Assembly: GCF_019428685.1 (NCBI RefSeq)
Contig: NZ_CP080095.1
Location: forward strand, 1,178,001-1,242,000
Origin: Paraburkholderia edwinii
GTDB taxonomy: Bacteria; Pseudomonadota; Gammaproteobacteria; Burkholderiales; Burkholderiaceae
Direction: 5' to 3'
DNA length: 64,000 bases
The translations under genes were made by a program, and so were the position numbers. The notes below the pieces were generated by a model, which was not told the DNA's origin, did not search any database, and saw nothing but the letters and a program-made list of their open reading frames with translations. Below, in pieces: positions 41,503 to 54,372 of this stretch (within the stretch, counting starts at the first letter, position 1; each line of letters starts with the position of its first letter).

Positions 41503-44256
41503 ATGCCCTGCCTTCGTGCCTGCAATCTGCTCGACACCGTCGAGGGCGCCCGTCTGCATTCCGCCGACAGCGCGCACTGGCAACGCTGGGGCCCGTATCT
41601 GAGTGAACGCCAGTGGGGCACGGTGCGTGAGGACTACAGTCCTAACGGCACCGCATGGGACTACTTCCCACACGATCACGCACGCAGCCGCGCCTACCGC
41701 TGGGGTGAAGACGGTATCGCCGGCTTCGGCGACGACATGCTGAACTGGTGCGTGTCGCTCGCGCTGTGGAACCGGCGCGACCCGATCATCAAGGAGCGGC
41801 TGTTCGGGCTCACGAACTCGCAAGGCAATCATGGCGAGGACGTGAAGGAGCTGTATTTCTATCTCGACGGCACGCCCACGCATTCGTATATGCGCATGCT
41901 GTACAAATATCCGCATGCCGCGTATCCGTACTCCGATCTCGTCGAAGAAAACGCGCGCCGCGGCGCCGATATGCCCGAATACGAAGTGCTCGATACCGGC
42001 GTATTCGACAATTCGCGCTACTTCGACGTGACGGTCGAGTATGCGAAACACACGCCCGAAGACATCGTGATGCGCGTGACCGTCGAGAATCGCGCGGACG
42101 AAGCCGCGTCGCTCGATGTGCTGCCGCAGATCTGGGCGCGCAACAAATGGTCGTGGAAGGGGCTCGAAGAGAAGCCCTCGCTGATGTTCGAACGGATGCG
42201 CGACCGCACCTATCTGTTTGGCCGCCATCCGGGCTACGAATCGATCATCGTCGCCGCGTGGCGCAAGGATCTCGAGCGCGAGAATACCGGCTATGGAACC
42301 GGCGTCGAGTGGCTCTTCTGCGAGAACGAGACGAACCCGCGCCGCCTGTACGGCACGGAAGACGCGATCGGCCCGTTCAAGGACGGCTTCAACGACTACC
42401 TCGTGAATGGCGATCGCGAAGCGGTGCGCCGCGATTCCGGCACGAAGGCGGGTGCGCATGTGTCGCTCGAACTCGAGCCGCACGGCACCGCGGTCGTTTA
42501 TATGCGCTGGCGCGTCGCGTCGTCGCCCGATGAAGTGCCGCTCGACTGCGAGGCGCTGTTCGCGCGCCGGATCGCTGAAGCGGACGAATTCTACGGCGTG
42601 CTGCAGCGCGAGATCGAAGACGCGGATGAACGGCTCGTGCAGCGCCAGGCGCTGGCCGGCATGCTGTGGTCGAAGCAGTTCTACCAGTTCGACGTGCAGC
42701 GCTGGATGGACGGCGACCCCGCGCAACCGGTGCCGCCCACGGGCCGCCGGCGCGGCCGCAATGCGGACTGGCGGCATCTGTGCAATGCGGACATCGTGTC
42801 GATGCCGGACAAGTGGGAGTACCCGTGGTACGCATCATGGGACCTTGCGTTTCATGCGGCTGCGTTCGCACTGATCGATCCCGCGTTTGCGAAGCGCCAG
42901 CTGCTGCTGCTCGTGAAAGACCGTTATCAGCATCCGAACGGCCAGTTGCCCGCCTATGAGTGGGCCTTCAGTGATGCGAACCCGCCCGTGCATGCGTGGG
43001 CCGCATGGCGCGTCTACGAAATCGATCGCGCGCTGACCGGCAAGGGCGACCGCGATTTTCTGGAGCTTGTGTTTCACAAGCTGCTGTTGAATTTCTCGTG
43101 GTGGGTGAACCGCAAGGACGCGGACGGCCGCAATATCTTTCAGGGCGGCTTTCTCGGGCTCGATAACGTCGGCATCTTCGACCGTTCGTCGCCGCTGCCG
43201 ACGGGCGGCCATATCGACCAGGCCGACGGCACTGCGTGGATGGCTGCCTATGCGCTCGACCTGATGCGCATCGCGCTTGAACTCGCGTATGAAAACCATG
43301 TGTTCGTCGATATCGGCGTGAAGTTCTTCGAGCACTTCCTGTATATCGCCGAAGCGGTCAGTTGCGAGGACGGCTGCGAAACGGGCCTGTGGGACAGCCA
43401 GGACAGTTTCTTCTACGACAAGCTGCGCTTGCCGGACGGCGGCAATGTGCCGATGCGCGTGCGCTCGATCGTCGGGTTGATTCCGCTCTTTGCGGTGCAC
43501 GCGCTCGAACACCGGTTGCACGGCACGCTGCCCGGCCTGCACGAACGCCTGATGTGGTTCTTCCGGCATCGGCCCGATCTCGCCCGGCTCGTGTCGCGCT
43601 GGAACGAGCCCGGCAAAGGCAACACGTTGCTGCTGTCGCTGTTGCGCGGGCATCGCATGAAGGCGCTGCTGCGCCGCGCACTCGACGAAACCGAGTTTCT
43701 GTCCGATTACGGCGTGCGCGCGCTGTCGCGTGTGCATTGCGACGACCCGTTCGTGTTCAAGTTCGACGGCAAGGAGTTCTGCGTCAAGTATTTGCCCGCG
43801 GAATCGGATTCGCGCGTGTTCGGCGGCAACTCGAACTGGCGCGGGCCGATCTGGATGCCGGTCAACTTTCTGCTGATCGAATCGCTGTACGAATTTCACC
43901 GCTACTACGGCGACGATTTTCGTATCGAGTATCCGACCGGCTCCGGCGAGCGGCTGTCGTTGCGCGAGATCGGCGATGAGCTCGCGCGCCGTCTCACGAA
44001 ACTGTTCATGAAGGACGCGCACGGCAAACGGCCCGTCATGGCTGCGTATCCGCAATTGCAGGCGGACCCGCGTTCAAAGGATCTCGTCCTGTTTCACGAG
44101 TACTTCCACGGCGATACCGGCCGCGGCGTCGGCGCGTCGCATCAGACGGGCTGGAGCGGGCTCGTCGCGCTGCTGTTGCAGCCGCGTGAATCTGCGACGT
44201 CGGGCCTGGTGCCGGCGACCAGCGAAACCGAGCAGGCAGCTGTGGCGGTCAAATAA
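41503..44256 (+). CDS. GH63/MGH1-like glucosidase
   Basis: 917 residues. Opens SAHWQRWGPYLSERQWGTVREDYSPNGTAWDYFPHDHARSRAYRWGEDG, which is very characteristic of large bacterial 'MGH1-like glycoside hydrolases'. The (alpha/alpha)6 core includes YPWYASWDLAFHAAAFALIDPAFAKRQLLLL, LPAYEWAFSDANPPVHAWA, PTGGHIDQADGTAWMAAYALDLM and GNSNWRGPIWMPVNFLLIESL; GASHQTGWSGLVALLL ends it. Known GH63 enzymes hydrolyse alpha-glucosides (mannosylglycerate, trehalose-like or oligosaccharide ends). No signal peptide, so cytoplasmic. AAAAGGAGGACGC is an ideal ribosome site. Substrate not deducible; context suggests storage or osmolyte glucoside breakdown. Confidence 0.88.
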   Translation: MPCLRACNLLDTVEGARLHSADSAHWQRWGPYLSERQWGTVREDYSPNGTAWDYFPHDHARSRAYRWGEDGIAGFGDDMLNWCVSLALWNRRDPIIKERLFGLTNSQGNHGEDVKELYFYLDGTPTHSYMRMLYKYPHAAYPYSDLVEENARRGADMPEYEVLDTGVFDNSRYFDVTVEYAKHTPEDIVMRVTVENRADEAASLDVLPQIWARNKWSWKGLEEKPSLMFERMRDRTYLFGRHPGYESIIVAAWRKDLERENTGYGTGVEWLFCENETNPRRLYGTEDAIGPFKDGFNDYLVNGDREAVRRDSGTKAGAHVSLELEPHGTAVVYMRWRVASSPDEVPLDCEALFARRIAEADEFYGVLQREIEDADERLVQRQALAGMLWSKQFYQFDVQRWMDGDPAQPVPPTGRRRGRNADWRHLCNADIVSMPDKWEYPWYASWDLAFHAAAFALIDPAFAKRQLLLLVKDRYQHPNGQLPAYEWAFSDANPPVHAWAAWRVYEIDRALTGKGDRDFLELVFHKLLLNFSWWVNRKDADGRNIFQGGFLGLDNVGIFDRSSPLPTGGHIDQADGTAWMAAYALDLMRIALELAYENHVFVDIGVKFFEHFLYIAEAVSCEDGCETGLWDSQDSFFYDKLRLPDGGNVPMRVRSIVGLIPLFAVHALEHRLHGTLPGLHERLMWFFRHRPDLARLVSRWNEPGKGNTLLLSLLRGHRMKALLRRALDETEFLSDYGVRALSRVHCDDPFVFKFDGKEFCVKYLPAESDSRVFGGNSNWRGPIWMPVNFLLIESLYEFHRYYGDDFRIEYPTGSGERLSLREIGDELARRLTKLFMKDAHGKRPVMAAYPQLQADPRSKDLVLFHEYFHGDTGRGVGASHQTGWSGLVALLLQPRESATSGLVPATSETEQAAVAVK

Positions 44257-44288
44257 GACAAACGCGAACCGCGCACGCGCGCAAGCGT

Positions 44289-44326
44289 AGCCCGATGAAG
44301 CGCAGCTTGATGCGCTTTATCGGGCT
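44289..44326. terminator. Long hairpin between GH63 and zwf genes
   Basis: A 16-bp stem (44289-44304 with 44311-44326, one G-T wobble) around a 6-nt loop, about 30 bp after the GH63 stop. There is no T-run after it, so it may slow or partly end transcription or protect the 3' end rather than terminate strictly. Confidence 0.5.
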
Positions 44327-44513
44327 GTACAACTTGCTCGCCGTCGCGCATTCCGGGGCGCAGTTCTTGCCGCGTCGATGCAATGCTTGCGCGGCGGCTT
44401 TACAGAAGTCTTGCGAAAGCGCGCCGCCGCGCGATCCGATGGAACTGTATGGCCGTGCGGCGGGTCATCCTGGTAACGCCAGTCATGTGGGTCACCATCT
44501 GCGAGGGAATGCC

Positions 44514-46133
44514 ATGCCGTCCGATACCAATGCCACCGCCGAACTGAATCCGTCCACGGCAACCTCGGCCGCTGCCGGTAAGAAAGTGCCTGCGGCGCCG
44601 CCCGCCGCGCTCGCACGCGGCGAAGGTCCGTGCGGACCCGCGGGCGAATGCAAGGCGCCGCCGTGTTCGCTCGTGATCTTCGGTGCGGGCGGCGATCTGA
44701 CCAAGCGGCTGCTCGTGCCCGCGTTGTACAACCTCGTTGTCGACGGCTTGCTCGACGACGGCATGCAGGTGATCGGCGTGAATCGCGGCGAGCGCGGCAC
44801 CGACGATTGGCGCGACGATCTGCATGCATCGCTGCAGCAGTTCGCGGCCGAGCGCTCGAGCTCGGGCAAGGCCGACGAAGCATCGTGGAACTGGCTCGCG
44901 CAGCGGCTGCAATATATTGCCGGCGACTTCTCGACGCCCGACACGTTCGAGCGCGTCAAGCAGGCGATCGGCAAGAGCGGCTGCAGCAATGCGATCTTTT
45001 ACCTCGCGGTCGGCGAGCGCTTCTTCAAGCCGGTCGTCGAACAGCTCGGCAAGGCGGGCCTGCTCGACGAAGAGGGCGCGGGCGGCTTCAGGCGCGTCGT
45101 GATCGAAAAGCCGTTCGGCAACGATCTCGCGTCGGCGCGCGACCTGAACCAGCACATCCTGACTTACGCGAAAGAAGAGCAGATCTACCGGATCGATCAC
45201 TTCCTCGGCAAGGAAACGGTGCAGAGCATTCTCGCGGTGCGCTTTGCGAATGCGCTGTTCGAGCCGGTGTGGCGGCGCGAGTATATCGACAGCGTGCAGA
45301 TCACCGCGGCCGAAACGCTTGGCGTCGAAGGGCGCGGCGCGTTCTACGAACATACGGGCGCGTTTCGCGACATGGTGCCCAACCACCTGTTCCAGCTGAT
45401 GGCGATGGTCGCGATGGAGCCGCCGAACTCGTTCGATGCCGAAACGGTGCGCGACAAGAAAGCCGAAGTGTTCGAAGCGATCCAGCCGCTGCGCGCCGAG
45501 GATGTCGTCTTCGGGCAGTACGAAGAAGGGCCCGCCGGTGTCGGCTATCGCAAGGAGCCGAATGTCGCGCCCGACAGCACGACCGAAACCTACGCGGCCG
45601 CGCGGGTTCATATCGACAACTGGCGCTGGGGCGGCGTGCCGTTTTATCTGCGTACGGGCAAGCGCCTCAACGTGCGCCGCACCGAGATCGCGGTGCAGCT
45701 CAAGCGCGTGCCGTTCCTCATGTTCCGCGATACGCCCGTCGATTCGCTGACGCCGAACGTGCTGACGCTGCGCATCGATCCGACGCACGGCACGCGTTTC
45801 GACTTCAACGTGAAGGTGCCGGGCCCGACGATGAGAATGGGCCACGTGCGCTCGACATTCGACTACAACGATTTCTTCAAGGAGCAGGCGAACGTCGGCT
45901 ATGAAACGCTGCTGTACGACTGCATGCTCGGCGACGAGACGTTGTTTCAGCGTGCCGACAGCATCGAGGGAAGCTGGGCGGCGGTGGACGCGGTGCTGCA
46001 TCCGACCGCCGGCGGCGCGATGCGCGTGCACGGCTATGCGGCGGGCGGCAGCGGACCGGCTGAGGCCGATGCGCTGCTCGCGCGCGACGGACGCACGTGG
46101 CGGCCGCTCGACGATGAACCGAAGCGGCGCTGA
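44514..46133 (+). CDS. zwf: Glucose-6-phosphate 1-dehydrogenase
   Basis: 539 residues. The NADP-binding motif is FGAGGDLTKRLL (about 57-68), preceded by an unusual Ala/Pro/Gly-rich leader of about 50 residues containing two Cys. The substrate-binding signature is YRIDHFLGKETVQ, with VVIEKPFGNDL before it. It oxidises glucose 6-phosphate to 6-phosphogluconolactone, feeding the oxidative pentose phosphate and Entner-Doudoroff routes. The core carries a PNVAPDSTTETYAAARVHIDNWRWGGVPFYLRTGKRL stretch typical of the family. GAGGGAATGCC before ATG 44514. The following gene is a glucokinase-like protein that would supply its substrate. Confidence 0.95.
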   Translation: MPSDTNATAELNPSTATSAAAGKKVPAAPPAALARGEGPCGPAGECKAPPCSLVIFGAGGDLTKRLLVPALYNLVVDGLLDDGMQVIGVNRGERGTDDWRDDLHASLQQFAAERSSSGKADEASWNWLAQRLQYIAGDFSTPDTFERVKQAIGKSGCSNAIFYLAVGERFFKPVVEQLGKAGLLDEEGAGGFRRVVIEKPFGNDLASARDLNQHILTYAKEEQIYRIDHFLGKETVQSILAVRFANALFEPVWRREYIDSVQITAAETLGVEGRGAFYEHTGAFRDMVPNHLFQLMAMVAMEPPNSFDAETVRDKKAEVFEAIQPLRAEDVVFGQYEEGPAGVGYRKEPNVAPDSTTETYAAARVHIDNWRWGGVPFYLRTGKRLNVRRTEIAVQLKRVPFLMFRDTPVDSLTPNVLTLRIDPTHGTRFDFNVKVPGPTMRMGHVRSTFDYNDFFKEQANVGYETLLYDCMLGDETLFQRADSIEGSWAAVDAVLHPTAGGAMRVHGYAAGGSGPAEADALLARDGRTWRPLDDEPKRR

Positions 46134-46174
46134 CGGGTCGAGTAGATAGAACAACTTCAAAAGGGACGATGACT

Positions 46175-47140
46175 ATGCCTACACGAAAAAAGACGGCGGC
46201 GAGCAGAAAGACGAGTGCGAAGAAGGTTGTGGCGAAGAAGGCTGCTGCGAAGAAGGTCGCCGCGAAGAAGGTCGCAGCGAAGAAGGCCGCGGCGACCAGA
46301 AGGCCGAATGCTGCCGCGAGTAAAAAGGCCACTGCGTCGCGCAAGTCCGCCCCAGCGGCGCGGCAACCCGCCGGCGGGCTCAATGCGCGCGATCGGATTC
46401 TCGCAATCGATATCGGCGGCACGGGCTTGAAGGCTGCGGTTATCGACGGCAACGGCAAGATGCTGAGCGAACGCGTTCGTGTCGCCACGCCGCATCCGTG
46501 CACGCCCGAGCAGATGGCCGATACGCTTGCGAAGCTCGTCAAGCCGTTGCTCGAGCAACATCATCCGACGCGGATGTCGATGGGCTTTCCTGGCGTCGTG
46601 CGCGAGAACCGCGTGCTGACGGCGCCGAACATCGGCGACGAGGGCTGGCATGGCGTGCCGCTTGCCGACATGCTGGCGAAGCGCGTCGGCGGCTTGCCGG
46701 TACGGATGATCAACGATGCGGAGATGCAGGGGCTTGCGGCGATCGAGGGGCACGGCCTCGAATTCGTGCTGACGCTCGGCACCGGCGCGGGCACGGCGCT
46801 CTTTCGCGACGGCGAACTGATGCCGCATCTTGAACTTGCGCATCACCCTGTCAGCAAGAATCGCACGTATGACGAGTACATCGGCGGACACGCGCGCGAG
46901 TCAGCGGGAGACAAACAGTGGAACAAGCGCGTCGAGAAGATCATTGGCGTGCTCGAGCGGCTCGTGAACTATGACCGGCTGTGGATCGGCGGTGGCAATG
47001 CGGCGAACCTGAAGTTCGATTTGCCGGCGAACGTGGCGATCGTGTCAAACGCGGCGGGCATCGAAGGTGGGGCCAGACTATGGCATCCGCGTTCGGTGCG
47101 TGAAACCCGGCAGTTTTCGGATGCGGATTTGCGCAAGTGA
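46175..47140 (+). CDS. Polyphosphate-glucokinase-like ROK protein with Lys/Ala-rich N-terminal tail
   Basis: 321 residues. Residues 1-70 form a basic tail made largely of AAKKV-type units, like histone H1 or AlgP tails. The kinase core starts at about 75: ILAIDIGGTGLKAAVIDGNGK (phosphate loop), MGFPGVVRENRV, MINDAEMQGLAAIEG (candidate catalytic Asp) and TLGTGAGTALFRDGE. The short length of the core (about 245 residues) and the PNIGDEGWHGVPL segment match polyphosphate/ATP glucokinases, which make glucose 6-phosphate. AAAGGGACG is correctly spaced for the ATG at 46175, not the one at 46169. It lies 41 bp after zwf and would provide its substrate. The tail is absent from the well-known enzymes. 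Confidence 0.85.
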   Translation: MPTRKKTAASRKTSAKKVVAKKAAAKKVAAKKVAAKKAAATRRPNAAASKKATASRKSAPAARQPAGGLNARDRILAIDIGGTGLKAAVIDGNGKMLSERVRVATPHPCTPEQMADTLAKLVKPLLEQHHPTRMSMGFPGVVRENRVLTAPNIGDEGWHGVPLADMLAKRVGGLPVRMINDAEMQGLAAIEGHGLEFVLTLGTGAGTALFRDGELMPHLELAHHPVSKNRTYDEYIGGHARESAGDKQWNKRVEKIIGVLERLVNYDRLWIGGGNAANLKFDLPANVAIVSNAAGIEGGARLWHPRSVRETRQFSDADLRK

Positions 47141-47260
47141 AGGTTGGCCGGAAGGTTTTGGGCTAGCAGGCGCTAGCTAGTGCGCTAACCCCATGCGCTG
47201 GCCGATTTCGCGCGAAGCCGCATAGCGGGTTGACGTCGGGGTGACAGCGCGTTGACGCGC

Positions 47261-47288
47261 GTGGCGGAGGCAAGGCTGTCTCCGCCAC
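47261..47288. terminator. Hairpin between the convergent glucokinase and coiled-coil genes
   Basis: GTGGCGGAG (47261-47269) pairs perfectly with CTCCGCCAC (47280-47288) around a 10-nt loop, lying 120 bp after one stop codon and 4 bp from the other. Only a short TTCT follows on the plus strand. Confidence 0.5.
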
Positions 47289-47291
47289 TTC

Positions 47292-48065
47292 TCACGCACT
47301 ATAAGTGGAGACCCACACCCAGATCGGCTTCCACCCCAAGGTAACGCCGAGCACCGCCACGATTCCAGTCCCGGTCCAGAACAACCGATGGACGAAGTCC
47401 TTCAGCGACGAGAGTTTGTCTTCGGTCGTCTTCACCCGCTCGAGTGCGCTGGTTTCGAGTTTCTCGACGCTCTCCTCAACCTTTTCGACGCGCCTCGCGA
47501 ATCGCTCCTCGGATTCGCGGCCTAGTTGGGTCAGACGCTTCTCAGACTCTTCGCTCGATCTGGCCCAGCGCTTCTCAGCCTCCTCGCACGATTTAGCCCA
47601 ACGCTTATCAGCCTCCTCGCTCGATTTGGCCGAGCGCTGCTCCGCCTCTTCGCACCATTTGGCCCAGCGCTTTTCCGCATCTTCGCTCAACTTTGTTAAG
47701 CGCTGCTCGGCTTCTTCGCACCATTTAGCCGAGCGCATCTCCGCTTCTTCGCACCATTTGGCCCAGCGCTTTTCCGCATCTTCGCTCAACTTTGTCAAGC
47801 GCTGCTCGGCTTCTTCGCCGGCCTTTGTCAAACGCGACTCAGATTCGCGGGCGAGGTCGGTGAGGCGAATTTCCGATTCCTTGACGTACGCGTCCAACTG
47901 GACTTGGGCCATTGACAAAGCGCCGAGCTCGCGGTGGATTTGTGCGAGCTGTGTGTACACCGCGAAAGTGAAGTTGCTTCCGGTTTCATTGCCCATTGTC
48001 TGAGCCTGAACTGGCAGATCGGGCGCGTCGCGGACGGCGCCTTGTGTCGAGAGAGTTTGCATCAT
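47292..48065 (-). CDS. Membrane-anchored coiled-coil protein of 11-residue repeats
   Basis: 257 residues, not recognised as a known family. After about 63 residues (possible helix QLAQIHRELGALSMAQVQLD) come twelve consecutive 11-residue units, 64-195, with the pattern (A/S)E-x-R-(W/L/S)-(A/T)-K-x-x-E-E, for example AEKRWAKWCEE and AEQRLTKLSED. Eleven-residue periodicity gives a right-handed or nearly straight coiled coil. Several units carry Cys in the same place. A membrane segment near the C-terminus (about 228-252, FWTGTGIVAVLGVTLGWKPIWVWV) anchors it with the coil inside or outside. The start (ATGATG at 48065/48062) overlaps the stop of the upstream small gene, so the two are co-translated. 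The units recur at DNA level, so the array is prone to length change. Confidence 0.85.
   Translation of the reverse strand: MMQTLSTQGAVRDAPDLPVQAQTMGNETGSNFTFAVYTQLAQIHRELGALSMAQVQLDAYVKESEIRLTDLARESESRLTKAGEEAEQRLTKLSEDAEKRWAKWCEEAEMRSAKWCEEAEQRLTKLSEDAEKRWAKWCEEAEQRSAKSSEEADKRWAKSCEEAEKRWARSSEESEKRLTQLGRESEERFARRVEKVEESVEKLETSALERVKTTEDKLSSLKDFVHRLFWTGTGIVAVLGVTLGWKPIWVWVSTYSA
47481..47876. repeat. Twelve in-frame 33-bp units inside the coiled-coil gene
   Basis: The stretch encodes the twelve 11-residue units. A two- or three-unit block (AEQRLTKLSED, AEKRWAKWCEE) occurs twice with almost identical DNA (47664-47729 and 47763-47828), pointing to a recent internal duplication. Confidence 0.8.
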
Positions 48066-48328
48066 GTCTTACTCAGCTGCAGTCCTATAAATTCCCAAAT
48101 TGACTTGGGTGCGCGGCCATGAAACGCCGTTACACGCAATAAGATGCCCATTCCGGTCTGGCCTCCGTTAATGCCGAGTTTTTCTCCCAACTCGATTGTC
48201 GTGCCATTGAAGGACAGAAAGAATTTATCGTTGGCCACTTCGTGAAAATCACGAGCGGAAACGAGCTGTTTTGCTGCTGCTACGACCTTGTCCGGATTGG
48301 ACAGCGCTGTGATGAAGTACAGAGCCAT
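48062..48328 (-). CDS. Small protein of unknown function, first gene of the coiled-coil module
   Basis: 88 residues from ATG 48328 (MALYFITALSNPDKVVAAAK), ending FIGLQLSKT. An upstream GTG at 48382 with AGGAAG eight bases before it would add 18 residues and is also credible. It reads as a compact alpha/beta domain (VANDKFFLSFNGTTIELGEKLGI, GMGILLRVTAFHGRAPKSIWEFI) without membrane segments. I do not recognise the family. Its TGA overlaps the ATG of the coiled-coil gene, implying coupled translation and a joint role. The gene and its upstream region are clearly richer in A and T than the neighbours, which suggests acquisition by transfer. Confidence 0.72.
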   Translation of the reverse strand: MALYFITALSNPDKVVAAAKQLVSARDFHEVANDKFFLSFNGTTIELGEKLGINGGQTGMGILLRVTAFHGRAPKSIWEFIGLQLSKT

Positions 48329-48426
48329 GGGTGAGTTCGATCTTTCCTGCTGTGGATAGGCGTCCAATAAATCGTACCTCACCTGCCTATCTTCCTGGTA
48401 ATTCTTTTTATTTTAATATGCGTGAC

Positions 48427-48486
48427 TGCCTTAAAAGCGCTCGATATATTTAAATTTATTCTCTATTAATCTTTAGCGCTAAGGCA
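48427..48486. promoter_or_regulatory. Inverted repeat flanking an AT-rich core upstream of the two-gene module
   Basis: TGCCTTA-AA-AGCGCT (48427-48441) and AGCGCTAAGGCA (48475-48486) are inverted copies apart from a two- to three-base bulge, around 33 bp of A/T-rich sequence that contains TATATTTAAATTTA. It could be a promoter with two operator arms or a recombination-site scar. Confidence 0.45.
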
Positions 48487-48612
48487 TGCACAAGTGCGTC
48501 GGTATGAATAAGCAAGGAAATTCCGAATCAGTCCTACAGCAGTTCGCTGTTGACCGAGGAGCGCTGCGCTCGTCTCCCCGGTCCGTCTTTCGGTTGCCGA
48601 TGAAATCGGAAC

Positions 48613-49611
48613 TTACCGTGCCGCGTCGCCCCACCGGTACTCGACGGTTGCCTCATCGAGTTGCGCCTTCAGTTCCGGATCGAGCTTCAGATCGATAGCC
48701 GCGAGCGTCTCGTCGAGCTGGTCGGGCCGGCTCGCACCGATGATCGCCGACGTCACGACCGGATTGGCAAGCACCCATGCCAGCGACGTTTTCGCCAGCG
48801 ACAGCCCGGCCTTGTCGACGATGCCGCGCAGCTTGTCGATCGTCTGGAACTCGCGCTCGTGCCAGTAGCGCTCCTGATACATCGTGCCGGCCTTGCCGAC
48901 CGTCGCCGACGTGAAGCGTCCTTCGGCGGGCTTGGCATCGTGCCGATGCTTGCCGGTCAGAAGGCCGCCTGCGAGCGGGTTATACGGCATCACCGCGAGT
49001 TTTTCCTCGGCGGCGAGCGGCAGCAGTTCGCGCTCGATCTGACGGAACAGCAGGTTATAGCGCGGCTGCACCGACACGAAGCGCACGACGCGCATCACAT
49101 CCGCGCGTCCGAGCGCGCTTGCGAGCCGGTAAGCGAGGAAGTTCGACACGCCGACATATCGCGCCTTACCCGAGCGCACGATCGTATCGAGTGCCTCGAG
49201 CGTTTCTTCGAGCGGCGTCTCGCGATCGTCGTTATGCAGCTGGTAGAGATCGACATAGTCGGTGTTCAGGCGCCGCAGCGAGTTGTCGATCGCATTGAGC
49301 AGATGCTTGCGCGATGAACCCTGATCCCACTCCGACGGGCCCACCTTGTTGAATGCTTTGGTCGCGACGATAAAGCGTTCGCGCTTGCCCTTGAGCCATT
49401 GCCCGATGATTTCCTCGGTACGGCCGGTCTGTTCGACCGTCGCGCCGAGCGGATAGGCATCGGCCGTATCGATAAACGTGACGCCTGCATCGCTCGCCTT
49501 GTCGAGAATGGCGCGCGATACCGCTTCGTCGGTCTGAAGGCCGAATGTCATCGTGCCGAGGCACAGACGCGAAACCGTCAGGCCTGTGCCGCCGAATTTG
49601 CAATATTGCAT
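48613..49611 (-). CDS. Aldo/keto reductase
   Basis: 332 residues, a TIM-barrel NADPH oxidoreductase. The catalytic tetrad is visible: Asp48 and Tyr53 (FIDTADAY), Lys85 (IVATKAF) and His126 (YQLHNDD). The NADPH-binding end shows SAIIGASRPDQLDETLAAIDLKLD. This is the YajO/Gpr-like branch that starts MQYCKFGGTGLTVSRLCLGTMTFG. It reduces aldehydes or ketones in the cytoplasm; substrate unknown. GGAGACACGTCC precedes ATG 49611, so the 27 residues possible upstream are not needed. It is not obviously linked to its neighbours. Confidence 0.92.
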   Translation of the reverse strand: MQYCKFGGTGLTVSRLCLGTMTFGLQTDEAVSRAILDKASDAGVTFIDTADAYPLGATVEQTGRTEEIIGQWLKGKRERFIVATKAFNKVGPSEWDQGSSRKHLLNAIDNSLRRLNTDYVDLYQLHNDDRETPLEETLEALDTIVRSGKARYVGVSNFLAYRLASALGRADVMRVVRFVSVQPRYNLLFRQIERELLPLAAEEKLAVMPYNPLAGGLLTGKHRHDAKPAEGRFTSATVGKAGTMYQERYWHEREFQTIDKLRGIVDKAGLSLAKTSLAWVLANPVVTSAIIGASRPDQLDETLAAIDLKLDPELKAQLDEATVEYRWGDAAR

Positions 49612-49837
49612 GGACGTGTCTCCGCAATGTGAACGTAAGGGAAAGAAAGGCGCACGACATCGTGCGAAATGCTGACTGGAGGGGGCGCGCACCGATCAGG
49701 ATGCGAAAACACGAAGCATAGCGGGTATCACAACTTCGCGTCGGAGGCCGCGCATGGACGCGGCCCCTTTGAAAAAAATTCAATCCGTGCGCATCGTGCT
49801 CAAACGGGCCGACGAGCGAGGGCGATACCGTGATTGC

Positions 49838-50977
49838 TCAGCCACGCCGCGCCTTTTTAGTGGGCCCACCCTTGCTACGCGGTGCGCACGTCGAACCACG
49901 CACCATCAGCCGCGGCTCCGATGTCACGCAGACGCGCGGTGCTTCGCTCGCGCGCTTTTGCGCGCCTCCGCGCGAGTCGTTACGCAGGTCATGACGTGTC
50001 TCGTTGCGGGTTCCATTGCGCGCCGCACCGCGCAGATCGCCGGGCCGCTCGACAAGCTCCCGCAGCAGCGACACCGCCAGTTCCGCGGCTTCGACGGTGG
50101 GCACCGCGACTGTCGTCAAAGGCGGCCGCGACTGCTGCGCAAGCTGAATATCGGTGATGCCGATCACCGACAAATCCGTCGGCACGTCGCGCCCGAGATC
50201 GAATGCCGCGTTGATCGAACCGAGCGCCGGCAGATCGTTCGTCGCGAAGATCGCCGTGGTGTGCGGATGCGCTTCGAGCAGATCGCGCGCGGCCGCATAG
50301 CCGCCTTCGATCGTATCGGGTGCGTGCCGCACGCACGTGCGCGGCAGCTTGACGCCCGCGGCGCGCAACGCATCGACGAAGCCTTCGTAACGCGCCGCAT
50401 GAATACCCGCGCGCTTGCTGCCGACAATCGCGACGATATGCCGATGACCAAGTTCGAGCAGATGTTGCGCGGCAAGCTCGCCCGCGCGCCGGAAATCGAC
50501 AGCCACGCACGGCAGACCGGGCGGATCGTGCGGCCGCTCCCACATGCACAGCACGACCGGCGTGCCGCGCGCTTCGGTCTGGTGCAAATCGGCGAAGTCG
50601 AGATTCGCGTTCATGACGAGCACGCCTTCGGATAGCGTGCCGGCAATCTGTTCGAGATACTTGCGGCCCGCAAGCGGATCCTGGTTCGTATTGCAGACGA
50701 TCACGAAATGCCCGCTTGCGCGCGCTGCACGCTCGACCGCGAGCGCGAACTCCGGATAGAACGGATTCGCGATGCTCGACACCATCAGCGCAATCGTTGG
50801 CGCGCGGCCTTCGGCGAGCGCGCGCGCGGCCAGATGCGGGCGATAGCCGAGCGCGGCGACCGCTTCGAGCACGCGCTTGCGCGTTTGTTCGCCGACGCGG
50901 CCGCGATTGCGCAGCACGTTCGATACGGTCGCCGAGGTGACGCCGGCGTGCGCCGCGACTTCGCTCAAAGTGGACAT
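49838..50977 (-). CDS. LacI-family transcriptional regulator
   Basis: 379 residues. The helix-turn-helix is TLSEVAAHAGVTSATVSNVLRNRGRVGEQTRKRV (3-36), followed by the hinge LGYRPHLAARALAEGRAPTIAL. The periplasmic-binding-like effector domain covers about 60-325, including ANPFYPEFALAVERAARASGHFVIVCNT and AIFATNDLPALGSINAAFDLG. A basic, low-complexity tail with a repeated NGTRNETRHDLRNDSR pattern and about 45 residues follows, longer than usual. It is divergent from the ABC/GH42 block, and a perfect LacI-type palindrome lies 38 bp before that block's first gene, so repression of these sugar genes, relieved by a beta-galactoside or its product, is likely. Confidence 0.92.
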   Translation of the reverse strand: MSTLSEVAAHAGVTSATVSNVLRNRGRVGEQTRKRVLEAVAALGYRPHLAARALAEGRAPTIALMVSSIANPFYPEFALAVERAARASGHFVIVCNTNQDPLAGRKYLEQIAGTLSEGVLVMNANLDFADLHQTEARGTPVVLCMWERPHDPPGLPCVAVDFRRAGELAAQHLLELGHRHIVAIVGSKRAGIHAARYEGFVDALRAAGVKLPRTCVRHAPDTIEGGYAAARDLLEAHPHTTAIFATNDLPALGSINAAFDLGRDVPTDLSVIGITDIQLAQQSRPPLTTVAVPTVEAAELAVSLLRELVERPGDLRGAARNGTRNETRHDLRNDSRGGAQKRASEAPRVCVTSEPRLMVRGSTCAPRSKGGPTKKARRG

Positions 50978-51100
50978 GGAATAGACATAGGGGATCGTGT
51001 CGCCAGTATGTGGGATGCTTTCTCAGAATTTGCGTTGCTGCCCGGCGCGCGGCACCATTCCCGCACAAACAGAATGAGATCGGAGACGAAGCTTCACGCG

Positions 51101-51126
51101 AACGATCGCGCTTGCGATCGTTTTTT
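51101..51126 (+). terminator. Hairpin with T-run in the divergent LacI/ABC region
   Basis: AACGATCGC (51101-51109) pairs perfectly with GCGATCGTT (51114-51122) around GCTT, and six T start at 51121. It has the form of an intrinsic terminator on the plus strand but sits upstream of the operator and the ABC gene, where it could attenuate or insulate. Confidence 0.6.
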
Positions 51127-51137
51127 GAAGCCCCGCT

Positions 51138-51153
51138 GATTAAGCGCTTAATC
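51138..51153. promoter_or_regulatory. LacI-type operator of the ABC/GH42 genes
   Basis: GATTAAGCGCTTAATC is a perfect 16-bp palindrome with the central GCGC step usual for LacI/GalR-family operators. It lies 38 bp before the ABC ATPase start and 160 bp from the divergent LacI-type gene. Confidence 0.8.
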
Positions 51154-51190
51154 TCCGGCTCCCGTCGATTTAAACATGGAGTGGAGACGA

Positions 51191-52366
51191 ATGGCGAGCA
51201 TTTCGTTACGCGGCGTACAGAAAGCGTACGGCGATAGCGCGCCGGTGATTCGCAACGTCGATCTGGAGATCGGCGAAAACGAGTTCTGCGTGTTCTTGGG
51301 CCCGTCCGGCTGCGGCAAGTCGACACTGCTGCGCATGATCGCGGGCCTCGAAGATGTCACTGACGGCGACCTGTCGATCGGCGGGCGCCTCGTGAACGAT
51401 ATCCCCGCGGCCGAACGCGGCGTCGCGATGGTGTTCCAGAGCTACGCGCTGTTTCCGCATATGAGCGTCTACGAGAATATGGCGTTCGGGCTCAAGCTCG
51501 CGAAAGTGCCGAAGAGCGAGGTCGACCGCAAGGTGCGCGAGGCCGCGCGCATTCTGCAACTCGAAGCGCTGCTCGAGCGGCGGCCGCGCGCATTGTCCGG
51601 CGGCCAGCGGCAGCGCGTGGCGATCGGCCGCGCAATCGTGCGCGAACCCGGTGTGTTTCTGTTCGACGAGCCGTTGTCGAATCTCGATGCGACCTTGCGC
51701 GGCCAGACGCGTATCGAGATCGCGAAGCTGCACCGGCAGTTCGCGAAGGCGAGCGTCGTTTACGTGACGCACGATCAGACCGAGGCGATGACGCTGGCCG
51801 ATCGCATCGTCTTGCTGCATGCGGGCAAAGACACTGAGCGCCACGGCAGCATCGCGCAGATCGGCGCGCCGCTCGAGCTTTATCACCGGCCGGCGAGCCG
51901 CTTCGTCGCCGGCTTTATCGGCTCGCCGCGCATGAACTTTCTGCCGGCGACGGTCGCATCCGCCGATGCTCAAGGCGTGACTGTCACGCTTGCGCAGAGC
52001 GGCGAGCGCTTGCGCGTCGAAGCCGATGGCAGCGGCTTGCAGAATGCGCAGACGGTCACGTTCGGTGTGCGTCCGGAGCATCTCGAACTGATCGATGCAG
52101 ATGCGAACGGCACAAGCGGCACAAGCGGCAACACCGACACCACACTCACGCGCGGCGTCCAGCTCGTCGAGCATCTCGGCGAGCACAGCTATGTGCACCT
52201 CGATCAGCCAGGCGGCGACACGCTAATCGCGAAAGTCCCCGGCGGCGCGCAGGTCTCGATCGGCGAGCGCGTGACGTTTCGCGCAAACCCGGCTGCCTGC
52301 CATCTGTTCACCGAAGACGGTTTCGCGGTGCCCGCGCGCGGCGCCGCTGTCCCTCTCAACGCATAA
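51191..52366 (+). CDS. Sugar ABC transporter ATP-binding protein (UgpC/MalK type)
   Basis: 391 residues. Walker A GPSGCGKST, Q-loop VFQSYALFPHMSVYENMAFGLKL, signature LSGGQRQRVAIGRAIV, Walker B VFLFDEPLSNLDA and switch VTHDQTEAMTLAD are all intact. The C-terminal regulatory OB-fold region (from about 235: GAPLELYHRPASRFVAGFIGSPRMNFLPA, VTFGVRPEHLEL, GVQLVEHLGEHSYVHL) marks the MalK/UgpC class that powers carbohydrate uptake. A short repeat GTSGTSGNT lies in the regulatory domain. ATG 51191 follows GTGGAGACGA. It starts a three-gene set with GH42 and a binding protein but without permeases. Confidence 0.93.
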   Translation: MASISLRGVQKAYGDSAPVIRNVDLEIGENEFCVFLGPSGCGKSTLLRMIAGLEDVTDGDLSIGGRLVNDIPAAERGVAMVFQSYALFPHMSVYENMAFGLKLAKVPKSEVDRKVREAARILQLEALLERRPRALSGGQRQRVAIGRAIVREPGVFLFDEPLSNLDATLRGQTRIEIAKLHRQFAKASVVYVTHDQTEAMTLADRIVLLHAGKDTERHGSIAQIGAPLELYHRPASRFVAGFIGSPRMNFLPATVASADAQGVTVTLAQSGERLRVEADGSGLQNAQTVTFGVRPEHLELIDADANGTSGTSGNTDTTLTRGVQLVEHLGEHSYVHLDQPGGDTLIAKVPGGAQVSIGERVTFRANPAACHLFTEDGFAVPARGAAVPLNA

Positions 52367-52377
52367 GGAACGAAACG

Positions 52378-54372
52378 ATGCGCCTCGGAGTTTGCTACTA
52401 CCCCGAACACTGGCCTGAGTCGATGTGGGAAGACGACGCCCGCCGGATGAAATCGCTCGGCATCGAGCAGGTGCGGATCGCCGAGTTCGCGTGGAGCCGG
52501 ATGGAACCGGCGCCCGGCGAATACAACTGGGCATGGCTCGACCGCGCGGTCGACGTGCTCGGCAACGCGGGCCTGAAAGTGGTGATGTGCACGCCGACCG
52601 CGACGCCGCCGAAGTGGCTGATTGACCGCCATCCGGACATTCTGCCGGTCGGCGCCGATGGCCAGCCGCGCGGGTTCGGCTCGCGTCGTCATTACGATTT
52701 TTCGTCGCCGTCGTTTTTCGAAGCATCGCGAACGATTTGCACCGCGGTCGCCGAGCGATACGGCAAGCATCCGGCCGTCGCGTACTGGCAGACCGATAAC
52801 GAATACGGCTGCCACAACACCGTGGTCAGCTATTCGCCGGCGGCGGTCGCGCGTTTTCGCGAGTGGTTGAAGGCGCGCTACGGAACGGTCGATGCATTGA
52901 ACCGCGCGTGGGGAACCGTATTCTGGAGCATGGAATACCGCAGCTTCGACGAAATCGATGCGCCGGTCGGCACCGTCACCGAAGCGCATCCGTCGCACCG
53001 GCTCGACTACCGGCGATTCGCCTCGGATGAAGTCGCGCGCTACAACCGCATGCAGGTCGACATCATCCGCGCGCATTCGCCGGGCCGGCCCGTTGCGCAC
53101 AACTTCATGCAACTCTTTACCGAGTTCGATCACTACAAGGTCGCGGCCGATCTCGATGTCGCGACGTGGGACAGCTACCCGCTCGGCGCGCTCGAACAGC
53201 AATGGTTCGAACCGGAACTGAAAGCGAAATGGCTGCGCACGAGCCATCCGGATTTCGCGTCGTTCAATCACGACGTCTATCGCGGCATGTCGAAACTGCC
53301 GTTCTGGGTGATGGAGCAGCAGCCGGGGCCAGTCAACTGGGCGCCGTGGAATCCGGCGCCGCTAGCGGGCATGGTCCGGTTGTGGAGCTGGGAAGCGTTT
53401 GCGCACGGCGCGGGCTGCGTGTCGTACTTCAGATGGCGGCAGGCGCCGTTTGCGCAGGAGCAGATGCATGCAGGGCTCAACACGCCCGATAACCAGCTCG
53501 ATGTCGGCGGGCACGAAGCGGCGCGCGTCGCCGAAGAAATCCGCGCGGTCGCTGCGGCCCATGCCGATGCCGACGCTGCAGTGACCACAAAGGTCGCCCT
53601 CGTCTACGACTATGAAGCGAAGTGGCTGTTCGAGATTCATCCGCAAGGCGCCGATTTCGCCTATCCGCGCTTTGCGTTTGAGTATTACTCGGCGTTGCGC
53701 GCGCTCGGTTTCGATGTCGACGTAATCCCGGCGACCGCGCCGCTCGACGGCTATGCGCTGGTCGTCGTGCCGCCGCTGCCCGTGGTGCCCGACGACTTCG
53801 CCGCGCGCGTCGAAGCGAGCGGCACGCATGTCGTGTTCGGTCCGCGCAGCGGATCGAAGACGCGCGACTTGCAGATTCCCGCGCACTTGCCGCCCGGTCC
53901 GCTTGCCTCGTTGCTGCCGATGCGCGTGTGGCGCGTCGAATCGTTGCGGCCGAATGCGGGAGAACGCGTGAGCGTCGACGCGAAGACTGAAGGCGACGCA
54001 CGCCATTGGCGAGATCTGATCGACACCGGTAACAACACGGGTAACAACACAGCCGCCGACACGGCGCTCGAGATTCGCGCGCGCTTTGCCGACGGACATC
54101 CAGCATATGTCCGCCGCGGCGCCGCGCACTATTTCGCGAGCATTTTCGACGAGCGGCTGACCGAACAGCTATTCGCGCGCATTGCGTCCGAAGCGGGCCT
54201 CACGCCGCATGCGCTTGGCGACAGCTTGCGTGTGAGCCGCCGCGGCGCGCTGACCTACGTGTTCAACTACGGCGAGCGTGTGCACACGGTCGACAACGTC
54301 GATGCAGCCGACTTCGTGATCGGCGCGCGCGAGGTCGAACCGCAGGGCGTAGCCGCATACCGAACGCGTTAA
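52378..54372 (+). CDS. GH42 beta-galactosidase
   Basis: 664 residues. Begins MRLGVCYYPEHWPESMWEDDARRMKSLGI, the standard opening of family 42. The acid/base is Glu142 (YWQTDNEYGCHN) and the nucleophile Glu313 (FWVMEQQPGPVNW). A trimerisation/A4-like domain and a small C-terminal beta-domain follow. No signal peptide, so it acts in the cytoplasm on imported beta-galactosides, releasing galactose. AAGGAACGAAACG precedes ATG, only 11 bp after the ABC gene, so the two are one operon. A repeated NNTGNNT stretch around 548 is a linker expansion. A mutarotase for galactose lies 7 kb downstream. Confidence 0.94.
   Translation: MRLGVCYYPEHWPESMWEDDARRMKSLGIEQVRIAEFAWSRMEPAPGEYNWAWLDRAVDVLGNAGLKVVMCTPTATPPKWLIDRHPDILPVGADGQPRGFGSRRHYDFSSPSFFEASRTICTAVAERYGKHPAVAYWQTDNEYGCHNTVVSYSPAAVARFREWLKARYGTVDALNRAWGTVFWSMEYRSFDEIDAPVGTVTEAHPSHRLDYRRFASDEVARYNRMQVDIIRAHSPGRPVAHNFMQLFTEFDHYKVAADLDVATWDSYPLGALEQQWFEPELKAKWLRTSHPDFASFNHDVYRGMSKLPFWVMEQQPGPVNWAPWNPAPLAGMVRLWSWEAFAHGAGCVSYFRWRQAPFAQEQMHAGLNTPDNQLDVGGHEAARVAEEIRAVAAAHADADAAVTTKVALVYDYEAKWLFEIHPQGADFAYPRFAFEYYSALRALGFDVDVIPATAPLDGYALVVVPPLPVVPDDFAARVEASGTHVVFGPRSGSKTRDLQIPAHLPPGPLASLLPMRVWRVESLRPNAGERVSVDAKTEGDARHWRDLIDTGNNTGNNTAADTALEIRARFADGHPAYVRRGAAHYFASIFDERLTEQLFARIASEAGLTPHALGDSLRVSRRGALTYVFNYGERVHTVDNVDAADFVIGAREVEPQGVAAYRTR

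Follow-up and report, generated by a model that had tools for sequence, protein, structure and literature searches.

A conserved gene pair of Paraburkholderia edwinii that encodes a probably non-catalytic Cas2-like protein and a coiled-coil-type partner with a hydrophobic C-terminal segment

The window analyzed here, a 64,000-nucleotide stretch of Paraburkholderia edwinii (contig NZ_CP080095.1, positions 1,178,001 to 1,242,000), contains two overlapping genes, one for a small protein and one for a partner that is predicted to be a long helical stalk with a membrane anchor. The pair is real and conserved, and it is undescribed in the libraries and literature that we covered. Models and alignments identify the small domain as a divergent relative of the Cas2-like/BPSL1038 fold group that is probably non-catalytic, and on present evidence we regard the pair as a variation on an established fold group, not as an entirely new kind. 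Our favored interpretation, to which we assign a probability of roughly 0.4, is that the two proteins constitute an accessory module, often carried on prophages or integrase-bearing elements, in which a membrane-tethered, non-catalytic Cas2-fold complex is most likely directed against incoming phage. The features of the locus are as follows.

48062..48328, minus strand: gene for the small protein, 88 amino acids, predicted Cas2-like (ferredoxin-like) fold, catalytic Asp and Ser-Thr turn missing
47292..48065, minus strand: gene for the partner, 257 amino acids, with a predicted disordered N-terminus, single long helix and C-terminal hydrophobic anchor (from the open reading frame, an AlphaFold2 model and homologous partners)
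47883..47978, minus strand: N-terminal helical segment of the partner, residues 30–61, where the small protein is proposed to dock (from an alignment of 11 partners)
47487..47882, minus strand: twelve 11-residue units, residues 62–193, putative coiled coil or amphipathic helix (from a unit table, autocorrelation and tandem repeats)
47310..47366, minus strand: hydrophobic C-terminal segment, residues 234–252, proposed inner-membrane anchor (Kyte–Doolittle 1.54)
48383..48490, no strand assigned: AT-rich region upstream of the pair, presumed promoter site

An earlier note, made from the letters of the window alone, had recognized the two genes as a coupled module of a small protein and a membrane-anchored coiled coil, and this description holds: both genes lie on the minus strand, and the ATG of the partner gene overlaps the TGA of the small gene as ATGA. 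The note had given the small product as 88–106 residues; the two lengths correspond to an ATG start and to an alternative GTG at 48382, respectively. We favor the shorter form because residue 1 is methionine in 71 of 72 aligned relatives. The AT-rich character of the upstream region was likewise confirmed by a comparison of base composition, the G+C content being 0.48 in 48000–48499 versus 0.59–0.68 in the flanking 500-bp windows (42000–53999, excluding windows that overlap 47250–48750). The promoter of the pair is presumed to lie in this region; searches with a simple consensus revealed neither a σ70-like promoter on the minus strand nor a terminator at the locus.

The two genes are found together in other genomes, as the note had left to be determined. 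Among 17 distinct loci for the small protein whose surroundings were readable, a partner-type open reading frame (ORF), defined by a hydrophobic stretch (Kyte–Doolittle score of at least 1.4) and by the layout of the partner as judged by eye, adjoins the small gene in 15. With the earliest start codon taken in each case, the start of the partner ORF falls in a range from 34 bases ahead of the end of the small gene to 6 bases past it. Excluded before the count were L009 (same ORFs as G133) and L011, L012, and L013 (same contigs as G182, G219, and G446), as were the repeats of counted loci (L001, L005, L015–L019, L027, L028, L068–L072, and L077–L082). The hosts are Paraburkholderia, other Burkholderiales, Rhizobium tumorigenes, Methylocystis, a metagenome-assembled genome of the Acidobacteriaceae, genome G843 (same phylum), and a viral contig.

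Within the genus, the small-protein alignment (A1) matched five of 144 genomes and the partner alignment (A6) matched the same five (E ≤ 1e-8). Most of these matches were expected, because A1 contained rows from three of the five genomes and A6 from all five; the information lies instead in the absence of orphans, no partner without a small protein having been found in the 144 genomes at that threshold. Beyond the genus the pair is sparse (four of 398 genomes in the family, four of 399 in the order, and two of 398 in the phylum, the window genome being counted each time), and absences in these searches are lower bounds because few candidates were scored per genome (13 for family, phylum, and order; 26 for the genus partner search). 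A single-sequence search returned one protein in a 5.8-billion set and none in genome contigs; such searches were too weak, and alignments of distant matches were therefore needed. These yielded 71 small-protein clusters, none with a Pfam domain and only one with a functional name (P0033, automatically labeled 'sarcosine oxidase gamma subunit'), and at least 173 partner clusters (7997 best candidates scored), the best 120 of which have no Pfam domain. Small-protein relatives or a partner relative as queries, the window small protein itself not being compared, matched no phage record; relatives used in the same way matched only one plasmid record, from Rhizobium, and a second scan of viral contigs gave no match. 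In the Rhizobium tumorigenes plasmid record the partner gene (L004:6264–6578) is missing from the distributed gene table.

The small domain had been called unrecognized in the earlier note, which had proposed comparing hidden Markov models (HMMs). It is indeed without a match above noise to any described family of known role, but it can now be placed: hhalign linked the small family to a set of six Cas2-like sequences with an E value of 1.4e-8 (60 shuffled controls), and the small-family HMM matched one of them, L065, at 3.4e-11. The fold comparison was a re-examination of Foldseek's list and covers the families on that list; the viral library gave weak fold matches (best E 0.017). The small-family profile also hit PPR proteins (best 1.5e-5), but these hits were discarded because no stretch passed on its own.

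The residues of the Cas2-type active site are not kept. At the end of strand 1, where the catalytic Asp would lie, no column from residue 7 to 14 has Asp in more than 14 of the 72 members, and the window protein has Asn at position 11. Acidic residues are not conserved anywhere in positions 5–14, the maxima being Glu at 13 (17 of 72) and Asp at 11 (14 of 72). The Ser-Ser-Thr (S-x-W) turn between strands 2 and 3 is also lost among the 72, with Ser counts of 7, 10, 1, and 4 at positions 32, 33, 34, and 35. Gly71 and Trp78, neither of them acidic, are the invariant residues, and the net charge averages −1.5 for the 72, close to neutral (+2 for the window protein). The models and alignments thus suggest a family that has kept the Cas2 fold and lost its active-site residues.

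Two known groups offer a comparison. BPSL1038 of Burkholderia pseudomallei (PDB 7vxr), a member of a Cas2/VapD-like nuclease sub-family, shows 10% identity to the small protein in a structural alignment, and its active-site D11 and SST motif are not conserved in the 72 relatives. The words "operon," "membrane," and "coiled" occur nowhere in the main text of the paper on BPSL1038 (PMC10491678), where Cas2 is described as hypothesized to derive from the VapD toxin–antitoxin system. The second group, phrog_1090, comprises solitary Cas2-like proteins of phages and plasmids, and is related to the small protein at the profile level. Unlike the small family, phrog_1090 keeps Asp13 and Ser41 in six of six aligned examples and has no partner-type gene directly downstream at the eight loci examined (two near-identical); at one of these, L060, an ORF with a hydrophobic stretch lies 53 bp downstream and was judged unrelated by eye. 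No literature was found under phrog_1090. Cas2-like genes of this kind that keep the motif Asp and Ser were seen in three of 117 same-genus genomes (L060, L061, and L062).

The partners share a layout: the chain opens with a Pro-bearing stretch that is probably disordered, continues with a helical N-terminal segment, and has a hydrophobic segment as well, whereas the stalk varies. By eye, the helix segment of the window protein resembles that of several distant partners (F-[TV]-[FL]-x-[AV]...G-x-L) in an alignment of 11 partners whose mean column identity is just 25%. The twelve consecutive 11-residue units described previously are well marked in the window partner: over residues 55–215, the sequence compared with itself at shifts of 11, 22, and 33 residues shows identities of 0.48, 0.48, and 0.46, whereas no other shift between 2 and 39 exceeds 0.16, and at the DNA level the array appears as 33-, 66-, and 99-bp tandem repeats (33-bp period at 47536–47818). 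Unit number varies. The partner of the sister species (G026) has nine units versus twelve in the window, a difference of exactly 33 residues or three units. By eye, about three stretches in the copy from the viral contig (L008) look like units, and none do in most of the other partners. AlphaFold2 predicted a disordered start followed by one helix over residues 30–243 (predicted local distance difference test score [pLDDT] 80.7, predicted template modeling score 0.37), with blocks of low confidence (pLDDT 54–59) in the anchor region. The array could be either a coiled coil or a helix lying on lipid.

The membrane segment that the earlier note had proposed is present as a hydrophobic C-terminal segment, which is borderline by sequence in the window copy and its sister: its 19 residues score 1.54 and 1.52, respectively, and those of the 13 other partners 1.77–2.54. 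The segment is C-terminal in 14 of 15 partners. Cysteines do occupy equivalent positions of several units, as had been noted (residues 105, 116, 138, and 160, the last position of four units). The suggestion that they cross-link the coil does not survive the comparison, since cysteines within the array are confined to the window copy among the 15 partners; L014 and L075 have one each within the hydrophobic segment, and the other 12, that of G026 among them, are Cys-free.

Like the small protein, the partner has no match above noise to a described family of known role. The best Pfam match of the window copy was Apolipoprotein (PF01442; E 1.5e-9), a family of lipid-binding helices built of 11-mers, but at 38.2 bits it falls far short of the cut-off of 90. 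PHROG and Pfam matches of the partner fell on a scatter of coiled-coil-type families and, like weak NCBIfam matches, were disregarded. A coil followed by a C-terminal hydrophobic anchor is the architecture of CCDC90, and the tail-anchored coiled coils of the DUF1640/CCDC90 type share these two features with the partner. One partner relative (P0116) carries a name of this type from its source; at an E limit of 0.1, however, 11 partners together matched 21 Pfam families, and the DUF1640 model was not one of them.

Mobile-element genes lie near the pair in nine of the 17 loci. Phage-integrase domains above the Pfam cut-off were found in L008, L023, L024, L025, and L075 and an integrase arm domain in L076; the integrase of L023 is a 209-amino acid ORF with the catalytic domain only. 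The distance from pair to integrase ORF is 37 bp in L023 and L024, 83–96 bp in L076 and L008, 1.5 kb in L075, and 5 kb in L025. On the other side of the pair in L023 and L024 is a gene that we take to be dusA. In PHROG comparisons, L004 showed tail genes adjoining the pair and L020 a tape-measure or transglycosylase-like gene at a distance of 5 kb; L022 has an endolysin-like gene (6.4e-8), and L025 a match to a phage family without an assigned function. Pfam revealed a phage lysozyme near the pair in L075. The earlier guess of a defense or toxin–antitoxin system fits this setting, which does not, however, choose between the two.

Some neighbors resemble candidate defense genes. Eighteen of them, from nine loci, were compared with PADLOC-DB. 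A PDC-M41B/PDC-M30B-like gene (E 1.8e-52; L024:4251–5525, G133 element) lies about 2 kb from the pair, a PDC-M36A-like gene (2.7e-19; L073:4551–6017, G843) about 1.4 kb from the partner, and in Pararobbsia alpina (L021:8077–10242) two partnerless small genes flank genes matching PDC-M02B and, over a short stretch, PDC-M02A. Two neighbors in L008 gave weak matches (best 4.1e-7) and the remaining 12 of the 18 none. The G027 element also has what is presumably a HicA/HicB-like pair (L023:3733–4489), without a PADLOC match and some 3 kb away from the module.

How might the module work? Translational coupling would bring both products together, and the small protein, probably a homodimer to judge from its fold, would bind rather than cut. 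It may dock on the N-terminal helix of the partner, whose stalk, of none to twelve regular units, would keep it a fixed distance away from the inner membrane; the C-terminal segment would serve in nearly all copies as the anchor, tethering the small protein at the cytoplasmic face. Cargo beside integrases is often anti-phage, and the placement of the pair beside integrases in several elements, together with its patchy spread, fits lysogen cargo. The complex may thus be expressed from the lysogen and act, most likely, on incoming phage by superinfection exclusion or abortive defense. More specifically, we suggest as a tentative possibility that temperate phages carry a hitherto unreported anti-phage or exclusion system, in which a dead Cas2-fold dimer would serve as sensor or adaptor on a length-adjustable inner-membrane stalk.

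Several observations weigh against this interpretation, in which the anti-phage role is our inference. PADLOC-DB has no model for the small protein (no family for the window copy up to E 1), and the window partner matches just parts of ZorA, LeoBC, and similar proteins (best 2.2e-5), which we take as coiled-coil similarity. Eight of the 17 loci, the window included, showed neither an integrase nor a confirmed phage gene, neighbors having been searched only in part. The two loci without a partner are both from Pararobbsia alpina (G219/L021), and the G843 partner carries its hydrophobic segment centrally. Divergence of the small protein correlates weakly with that of the first 75 residues of the partner (Mantel rho 0.21, p 0.04, 15 pairs; rho 0.18, p 0.09, for the 13 pairs left without near-duplicates). 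As for the fold, the small-family HMM directly matches only two of the six collected Cas2-like proteins (L065 and L067), the hhalign probability with a two-sequence template is only 21, and 29 of the 72 members have an Asp somewhere within residues 7–14.

A toxin–antitoxin pair, in which the membrane protein would be toxic by perturbing the membrane and the small protein would neutralize it, so stabilizing the mobile element, is an alternative that we consider unlikely. Two small coupled genes, a hydrophobic helix, and mobile elements speak for it, as do a small protein standing alone at two loci, like an orphan antitoxin, and the lack of orphan partners in the genus. However, a pore-forming toxin would need no ordered stalk of up to twelve units, and no toxin–antitoxin family was matched above noise by the proteins of the pair. 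In VapD-type systems, moreover, the nuclease is itself the toxin, and the nuclease residues are not conserved here.

We are likewise doubtful of a membrane organizer of host or prophage unrelated to phage competition, for example one that anchors DNA or a protein complex at the membrane, the length of the array serving as a spacer. The nucleic acid binding of known Cas2-fold members, the C-terminal anchoring of the stalk, the fact that the two closest copies differ in length by exactly three units, and the isolated chromosomal copies in the window and G026 are all consistent with it; the patchy presence of the pair argues against a housekeeping role, and the near-neutral charge of the small protein gives no sign of DNA binding. 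A part in a phage lysis cassette, XhlA- or holin-like, seems very improbable: the short helix and C-terminal hydrophobic segment do recall XhlA, and endolysin-like and lysozyme genes are near in L022 and L075, but the XhlA match (PF10779, one of 11 partners, E 0.067) is at noise level, the pair is on the opposite strand to those genes, and it lies less than 100 bp from the integrase ORF in L008, L023, L024, and L076. Finally, we give little credence to the idea that the small protein still cuts, using a displaced active site, and that the partner directs it to the membrane. The relationship in fold and profile to BPSL1038, a reported DNase (PMC10491678), and the scattered Asp residues would point that way, but positions 5–14 have no conserved acidic residue and neither invariant residue is acidic.

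A parallel to the favored membrane-tethered Cas2-fold complex is offered by membrane-anchored abortive-infection proteins of prophages, such as PdpSau and AbiP. As portrayed in PMC10127798, PdpSau is a membrane-anchored accessory protein of a prophage with abortive function, adjoining lysis genes; like our module it joins a membrane anchor to a domain of nucleic-acid-binding type, but it is a single protein with an N-terminal anchor and an OB-like fold, whereas here there are two proteins and a predicted Cas2 fold. No title or abstract opening in the literature that we covered on Cas2-like/VapD proteins, superinfection exclusion, and related topics describes the pair. Were the module anti-phage, it would add a small prophage-borne system, simple to test, to the known repertoire. 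Cas2 itself is a structural adaptor in the Cas1–Cas2 complex; a family with the fold retained, the active site gone, and a genetic link to a membrane stalk would illustrate how the fold turns into a structural adaptor, and a dead Cas2-fold sensor or adaptor would represent a second, non-CRISPR, non-nuclease career for it.

The window copy of the pair stands isolated in the chromosome, and no integrase accompanies it. Its neighbors, there and in G026, we take to be genes for a polyphosphate glucokinase and an aldo-keto reductase. Of 39 same-genus genomes searched, 30 yielded a locus with the reductase, and the pair is present only in the window and G026. The gap between glucokinase and reductase, measured in 22 cases, is 64–139 bp in six, 315 in one, 654–788 in 13, 1311 in one, and 1388 in G026, and each of five gaps that we read (L033, L037, L042, L053, and L054) presumably holds a PEBP-like gene, whole or in part. 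The slot between the glucokinase-like and reductase-like genes seems, then, to be a variable site. The gene at 46169–47140 (plus strand), presumably that of the polyphosphate glucokinase, encodes a product that starts with some 60 residues rich in Lys and Ala, a tail resembling that of histone H1.
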